The translations under genes were made by a program, and so were the position numbers. A DNA stretch of 64,000 nucleotides from Chloroflexota bacterium (GTDB taxonomy: Bacteria; Chloroflexota; Anaerolineae; Anaerolineales; Anaerolineaceae). This document shows, piece by piece, positions 56,371 through 57,691 of the stretch; the first letter of the stretch is position 1; each line of letters starts with the position of its first letter. The notes beneath the pieces were generated by a model that worked only from the letters and a program-made list of their open reading frames with translations, was not told where the DNA came from and did not search any database. The stretch is taken from positions 1 through 64,000 of the forward strand of contig JAKQFH010000025.1 in NCBI GenBank assembly GCA_029556265.1, read 5' to 3'.

Positions 56371-56835
56371 ATGCGGATACCAAATAAGCAACTGAATAGA
56401 AAGAACAGCGCGCTGCCGGTGGTATTGTTTCTGTTTGCGGCGCTCATCAGCCTGGGGGTATTGGTTTATCGGGGCGCGCGTGCTCTCGGCGGCAACCCGA
56501 TAGTTAAATCGCAGGATGACGTTCCCCGCCTGACTGTTCAGGAAGCGTATCAAGCTGTCCGGGATGGAAAAGCGATACTGGTAGACACGCGTTCCGCTGA
56601 ACAATACGCGGCGCAGCACGCGGCCGGCGCGATCAGCCTGCCGGTCTCCAACCTGGAGGCTAATCTCCCGGCTTTAGACCCAGAGCAGTGGTATATAACC
56701 TACTGCACCTGACCGGCTGAAAATACGAGCGCCCGTGCGGCGTTCCTGATGCTGCAAGCAGGTTTTTCCAAAGTCAACCCGATAAAAGGCGGCTTTGAAG
56801 CCTGGATAAATGCCGGCTATCCTACCGAACCATAG
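56371..56835 (+). CDS. membrane-anchored rhodanese with in-frame TGA (candidate selenoprotein or broken gene)
   Basis: Reading through one TGA gives 154 residues: an N-terminal anchor helix (LPVVLFLFAALISLGVLVY, about 15-33), then a single rhodanese domain (about 55-152): LTVQEAYQAVRDGKAILVDTRSAEQYAAQHAAGAISLP, YITYCT-TGA-PAENTSARAAFLMLQAGFSKV, GGFEAWINAGYPTEP. The TGA (56710-56712) sits two codons after the presumed catalytic Cys112. Homologues as I remember them have Cys in that place (YC-x-CP-x-E-x-TSA-x-A); the reading frame before and after is intact and well conserved. A 7-bp hairpin starting 14 nt after the TGA looks like a bacterial SECIS. The alternative is a C-to-A nonsense mutation; the neighbouring ferredoxin gene is broken, which supports decay. 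ATG 56371 follows GAGAGGT. Confidence 0.6.
56727..56745 (+). promoter_or_regulatory. SECIS-like hairpin downstream of the TGA codon
   Basis: GAGCGCC (56727-56733) pairs with GGCGTTC (56739-56745), seven pairs including one G-U, with a 5-nt apical loop CGUGC. The loop begins 22 nt after the TGA and has G as its second base, which fits the loose bacterial SECIS pattern. Short hairpins of this kind also arise by chance in GC-rich coding DNA. Confidence 0.4.
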
Positions 56836-56966
56836 GACCGCGTCGCAATCAGTTGAGCCTGTTGTGTAATCCTTTTCGCCCTGGATAACAAGCTGCTCTG
56901 ATGTAATTTGCATCAGGGCATTATAAAATCGGGAAATCACCCCTGAAGGCACAACGGAGCATGGAT

Positions 56967-57691
56967 ATGAAACGCAGGGCGCGAAGAATTACGGCTTTCA
57001 TTAGTTTCCTTCTATTTCCAATTACCCTGAATTTCTTTTCTTCTTATGTCAGGATTGACGGCGCGTTGAACGGGATTATCTAGGGCAGCCTGATCGTCTT
57101 CCTGATCATGTTTTTGACCGGTTTGTTTTTAGGACGTGCCGGTGTTCATATGTTTGTCTGTGGGCGGCGCCCTCGGAATATCTTCAAGCAGTCAATAACC
57201 GGCCCGTAAATCGCAAACACCTGGCAGTCCTTCGCTATGCGATCTTTGGTTTCTGGTTTGGGGCTGTGATTGTCTCGTTTCTCCTGGCAGGCGGGATTCG
57301 CGGCATTAATCCGCTTCACCTGACTGAGACAGGCGTTTCTGTGGACGTCCCGCTTAAGTATATAACCTATTACATGGTTGTCCTCCTGCTTTTCTTACTG
57401 ACCTGGTTGATCGGCAGACGGGGCGCTTGCCATGCCATATGTTGGATGTCACCCTTTCTCGTTGCGGGTACCTGGCTTGGCCGGAAGCTGCGCATGCCGC
57501 AGTTTAAGGTGTATTCAGAGACTGAAAAATGTATCGCTTGTGGTAAATGCACGCGCGATTGCCCGATGAGTATTGATGTAGAGCAGGAACAAAAGGCAGG
57601 CTTGGTGGCAAGTTTTGATTGCATTCTCTGCGGTAATTGCGTGGATGTATGCCCGAAAGACGTTCTAAAAATCAAAGCAAGCCGACACTAA
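56967..57691 (+). pseudogene. broken NapH-like polyferredoxin membrane protein
   Basis: A four- or five-helix polyferredoxin gene with two lesions. The N terminus (ATG 56967, GGAG upstream) reads a helix and NFFSSYVRIDGALNGII, then a TAG at 57081. After FLGRA a single base is missing between 57140 and 57141; in the shifted frame the protein continues CSYVC...EYLQAVNNRPVNRKHLAVLRYAIFG. The C terminus is complete: RGACHAICWMSPFLVAG and two [4Fe-4S] motifs, CIACGKCTRDCPM and CILCGNCVDVCPKD. In addition the expected CPWGA motif is CLWAA, so decay is more likely than a sequencing error alone. It was probably a partner for electron transfer beside the rhodanese. Confidence 0.8.

Follow-up and report, generated by a model that had tools for sequence, protein, structure and literature searches.

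Rhodaneses with a Cys-x-Sec (CxU) active site are an already predicted kind of protein, described as 'form 3' or 'COG0607 form 2' and represented in NCBIfam by NF041203, rhodanese_LYCAU (PMC13188914, PMC9312934). The gene analyzed here lies in a 64,000-nucleotide stretch of a Chloroflexota genome (hereafter, the window), and its product was assigned to the broad CxU kind on finding a predicted Cys-x-Sec at the active site of a rhodanese domain. The score of the window protein against NF041203 was 71.9 bits, short of the curated cut-off of 115, and the window protein and ten relatives, including both Sec and Cys forms, scored between 66 and 90 bits. Because these scores are below the cut-off, the protein was filed in the broad kind and not in NF041203 itself. 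When 400 genomes of the phylum were scanned, not one passed the cut-off.

We interpret the gene as encoding a selenoprotein, namely a membrane-anchored single-domain rhodanese with selenocysteine at residue 114 (Sec114), whose UGA would be decoded via a hairpin located 3' of the codon (probability of about 0.93). Insertion of selenium is, judging from the sequence comparisons, nearly certain. The first-pass annotation of the window had proposed a selenoprotein, and this proposal was supported by the conserved TGA, the Cys homologues, the covariation in the SECIS hairpin, and the presence of selA, selC, and selD. The features of the locus are as follows.

56371..56835, forward strand: gene for the predicted Sec-containing rhodanese, 154 aa and a TAG stop (open reading frame and translation; Pfam PF00581; AlphaFold2).
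56410..56490, forward strand: hydrophobic N-terminal helix, residues 14-40 (AlphaFold2 helix; hydrophobic stretch also in congeners).
Residues ~51-154: rhodanese domain (PF00581, E 3.4e-14; AlphaFold2 fold).
56704..56706, forward strand: TGC for Cys112, which follows the end of a beta strand and occupies the position of the rhodanese nucleophile (model; loci with TGA at both positions).
56710..56712, forward strand: in-frame TGA, predicted Sec114, at the second position of C112-T-U114 (TGA copies and Cys homologues).
56727..56745, forward strand: putative bacterial SECIS hairpin, stem 56727-56733 / 56739-56745 and loop CGUGC 56734-56738 (covariation, codon entropy).

The frame at 56371-56835 on the forward strand contains a single internal TGA at 56710-56712 and is otherwise open to the TAG, which bears out the earlier claim of a frame that is open before and after one TGA. 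In the translation (MRIPNK...WYITYCT, TGA, PAENTSARAAF...NAGYPTEP, stop), the context of the codon is I-T-Y-C112-T-TGA-P-A-E-N-T-S-A-R-A-A; that is, the TGA was found within Y-C-T-[TGA]-P, at the second position of YC-x-C, where Cys-Thr-Sec had been proposed. The alignment to the Pfam rhodanese profile ran uninterrupted over the TGA, and assignment to PF00581 was indicated by 53.6 bits (gathering score of 22.2) together with the fold match. A basic N terminus is followed by the hydrophobic helix (14-40) and then by the rhodanese domain. The helix is likely a membrane anchor, a topology that we infer, and the positive residues preceding it suggest that the rhodanese domain is located outside the cytoplasmic membrane.

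Homologues were searched in 61 related genomes with stops read through. The rhodanese with exactly one TGA was found in 13 congeners and also in further families of the order, with three copies in one genome assembled as a single contig (G047), and every locus read from this search had the TGA at the same place, always after Y-C-T. Within the genus, 14 complete copies and one cut by a contig end shared the TGA at an identical alignment column. A scan based on the alignment and covering 400 genomes of the phylum retrieved many further TGA rhodaneses from many families, and the TGA was located at the same site in more than 65 homologous genes across the phylum. For the analyses below, 73 fetched copies were used in the codon analysis and 68 sequences in the DNA alignment. 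The distribution of the gene was patchy, with about half of the congeners lacking the TGA rhodanese. The contigs of two congeners (G018 and G011; L023 and L024) stop at or just before the TGA; G018 still shows the TGA, and G011 is uninformative for it.

These comparisons bear on the possibility that the TGA is a true stop or a degrading mutation, leaving a truncated rhodanese or a pseudogene in a decaying stretch. The NapH-like gene downstream, which appears disrupted by a TAG and a frame change, would be in keeping with such decay, but the same TGA is followed by an open, conserved frame in dozens of independent genomes, and a covarying hairpin follows the codon. The congener sequences past the TGA are also conserved to the C terminus, in agreement with the earlier claim of conservation to the last residue. 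As the TGA is common to dozens of independent assemblies, a sequencing error or a pseudogene stop is ruled out, and the conservation of the TGA with intact downstream frames refutes the reading as a stop, which we regard as having a negligible chance of being correct. By comparison among homologues, the UGA is conserved as a coding codon. The NapH-like gene (4Fe-4S / ferredoxin-type protein, ~56964-57691) indeed looks disrupted, as the first-pass annotation had noted, with the TAG at 57081-57083 and the frame change, but its condition is irrelevant to the TGA. No NapH-like gene was seen at the syntenic locus of a congener (L072 of G024).

A scan of genome contigs retrieved 65 related loci that read Y-C-T-C-P-[SA]-E, with Cys at the exact site of the TGA; the search pattern itself required Cys, and these loci therefore show that Cys forms exist, not how frequent they are. 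Nearly all of them were from Acidobacteriota (Granulicella, Edaphobacter, and others), a few were labelled Rhodanobacteraceae or Verrucomicrobia, and the Cys sequences formed one group on the tree. The examination of homologues for Cys or Sec at this site, which had been suggested as a check, thus yielded Cys in 65 loci and TGA in more than 65 genes. With 73 TGA copies and 65 Cys homologues, the locus shows the conserved UGA and the Cys in other homologues by which selenoproteins are recognized.

The 7-bp hairpin that had been pointed out, with its loop beginning 22 nt past the TGA, was found as described. Its arms, GAGCGCC (56727-56733) and GGCGTTC (56739-56745), enclose the loop CGTGC (56734-56738), and it fits both the bacterial SECIS rules and the bSECIS model of PMC13188914. 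As a single sequence, the hairpin was unremarkable, with a fold z-score of -0.29; when both strands of the window were considered, 26 of 2139 TGAs (~1%) had a comparable hairpin (7-bp, G-containing, at an allowed distance), and an Rfam scan of the rhodanese gene returned only a chance match (E 4.4). The hairpin by itself is weak evidence, and it is the comparative evidence that lifts it above chance.

The 39 columns from the TGA onward aligned without gaps. Among 68 homologues, 88.5% of the cells in the 7-bp stem were paired, and compensatory changes on both sides were observed for all seven stem pairs. The covariation score of the stem was 0.196, compared with 0.120 in shuffles (none of 500 shuffles was as high), and sliding the stem as a control gave at most 0.112. 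The two outermost pairs were frequently lost, being unpaired in 22 and 28 of 67 sequences; the core therefore consists of five pairs, with which RNAalifold agrees. Codon use provided a test of the SECIS independent of covariation. For S120 A121 R122 A123 A124, the TGA genes almost always used AGC GCC CGT GCG GCG (codon entropy of 0.19-0.33 bits), compared with mostly 1.7-1.9 bits for other conserved four- or six-fold residues in the same genes. In the Cys homologues, the corresponding Ser and Ala codons varied freely (1.1-1.6 bits). The hairpin, checked as a putative SECIS, was thus covarying, fixed in distance, and synonymously frozen across homologues, and by these comparisons it is under selection as RNA.

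The genome containing the rhodanese also harbors selA, a tRNA-Sec gene (selC) with the anticodon UCA, and selD (L059, 1405-2475, reverse strand), itself a selenoprotein gene with an in-frame TGA of its own in C-A-G-U. This genome, which is 85% complete, yielded no gene of the SelB winged-helix family (selB), and 28 of 28 congeners have one; the lack is likely due to a missing contig at this completeness. The candidates for selB, first EF-Tu and then IF-2, LepA, and a TypA-like GTPase, were all other GTPases. The search for selenocysteine machinery called for by the first-pass annotation was therefore borne out for selA, selC, and selD and not, in this assembly, for selB. In the proposed mechanism, SelA, SelB, SelC, and SelD would read the UGA as Sec114, guided by the hairpin downstream of the codon.

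An open frame by itself would also permit the UGA to be decoded as a residue other than Sec (Trp, Cys, or a reassigned code). UGA, however, terminates genes in this genus. In two congeners (G002 and G023), the rhodanese gene itself holds the internal TGA and also ends with TGA, and UGA is therefore not reassigned. The dedicated tRNA-Sec and selA in the genome, a hairpin obeying bacterial SECIS rules, and homologues with Cys, the equivalent of Sec, at the site further argue against another residue, and we consider such decoding very improbable, though somewhat less so than a real stop.

At least seven loci (L167, L173, L178, L179, L181, L183, and L205) have TGA at both positions of the active site, TGA-[Thr/Ala]-TGA (UxU). 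These loci belong to several families, and a single SECIS-like hairpin is kept after the second TGA. When UxU was labelled on the tree, four changes were counted, of which at least three are forced by well-supported branches; this tree was built from short rows and contains many uncertain forks. The selA gene was found in six of the seven genomes with UxU loci and was not found in the remaining one, G326 (95% complete; UxU rhodanese L173). The UxU motif was absent from the list of a 2026 review and from a text search of the open literature on rhodanese selenoproteins. We moderately favor the interpretation that the clade represents a membrane-anchored, selenium-dependent enzyme in which the active site has repeatedly changed from Cys-x-Sec to Sec-x-Sec. 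In that case, the Sec-x-Sec pair would be made from two UGA codons, spaced one codon apart, under the direction of a single SECIS.

Other variants were also observed. L185, L201, and L212 form a separate clade with Sec elsewhere in the same fold, Y-C-x(4)-TGA-G-[ES]-S-Y, and L206 yields the same protein stretch. In related domains at four loci of family f36 (L188, L189, L209, and L210), the site reads Y-[GT]-D-... and contains no Cys or Sec.

In the AlphaFold2 model (mean pLDDT of 88), the rhodanese domain lies behind the long helix, and the fold matches 3tp9 (Z 18.4) and GlpE 1gmx (Z 17.2). A strand at 107-111 ends at Y111 and is followed by a loop, so that C112 stands where rhodaneses have their nucleophile, with U114 two residues further along the active-site loop. 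Sequence alignments to PDB entries were split, the ungapped alignment placing U114 and the gapped alignment placing C112 on the catalytic Cys, and the identity of the nucleophile is ambiguous between the two. We infer, at roughly even odds, that C112 and U114 may act as a redox pair on sulfane sulfur outside the membrane. Cys112 or Sec114 would take sulfane sulfur (persulfide/polysulfide) or a different oxidised species of sulfur or selenium, its partner in the pair would resolve it with release of sulfide and formation of a selenenylsulfide, and a thiol partner would then reduce the C112-U114 selenenylsulfide. The recurrent C-to-U change at the other Cys as well supports a predicted pair of redox-active residues. 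No conserved partner gene was found in the eight neighborhoods compared, and the biochemical role is therefore a guess. In G047, a second, lipoprotein-like rhodanese adjoins two of the three copies.

The selenoprotein might instead be a thiosulfate sulfurtransferase of the classical type, in which Cys112 would be the sole nucleophile and Sec114 would only tune the loop. This would be consistent with the canonical position of C112 in the model and with rhodaneses such as GlpE being the closest folds. Position 114, however, is always Sec or Cys in the CxC, CxU, and UxU members, and Cys112 itself is replaced by Sec in several lineages, suggesting chemistry at both positions; we therefore regard the classical activity as rather unlikely and prefer the redox pair.

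The annotation of this gene is likely to be a rhodanese truncated at the active site, and both this rhodanese and its relatives escape the curated selenoprotein model by which they should be named. By sequence comparison, they represent a largely uncurated clade of predicted membrane-anchored Sec rhodaneses, which adds a well-supported and widespread group to a phylum with a little-described selenoproteome. The CxC, CxU, and UxU series in one fold offers a natural test of the contribution of Sec at each position, and the UxU genes can be used to test whether a single SECIS drives two nearby UGA codons.

Among the known systems, NF041203 is the best NCBIfam match for the window protein and the ten relatives and resembles it in the rhodanese domain and Cys-x-Sec; its motif is C-A-U, whereas that of the window protein is C-T-U, and the window protein has an N-terminal helix ahead of the region spanned by the 126-position model. 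The YCTCP rhodaneses of Acidobacteriota (Granulicella, Edaphobacter) have C-x-C at the same site followed by P-x-E-x-[ST]-S, but Cys replaces Sec and the codons of the hairpin are not frozen. The fold is shared with E. coli GlpE (1gmx; Z 17.2) and with further single-domain rhodaneses; proteins of the GlpE type carry one active-site Cys in place of the predicted C-x-Sec, and in the alignment the following S-A motif of the window rhodanese is two residues farther from the first Cys.
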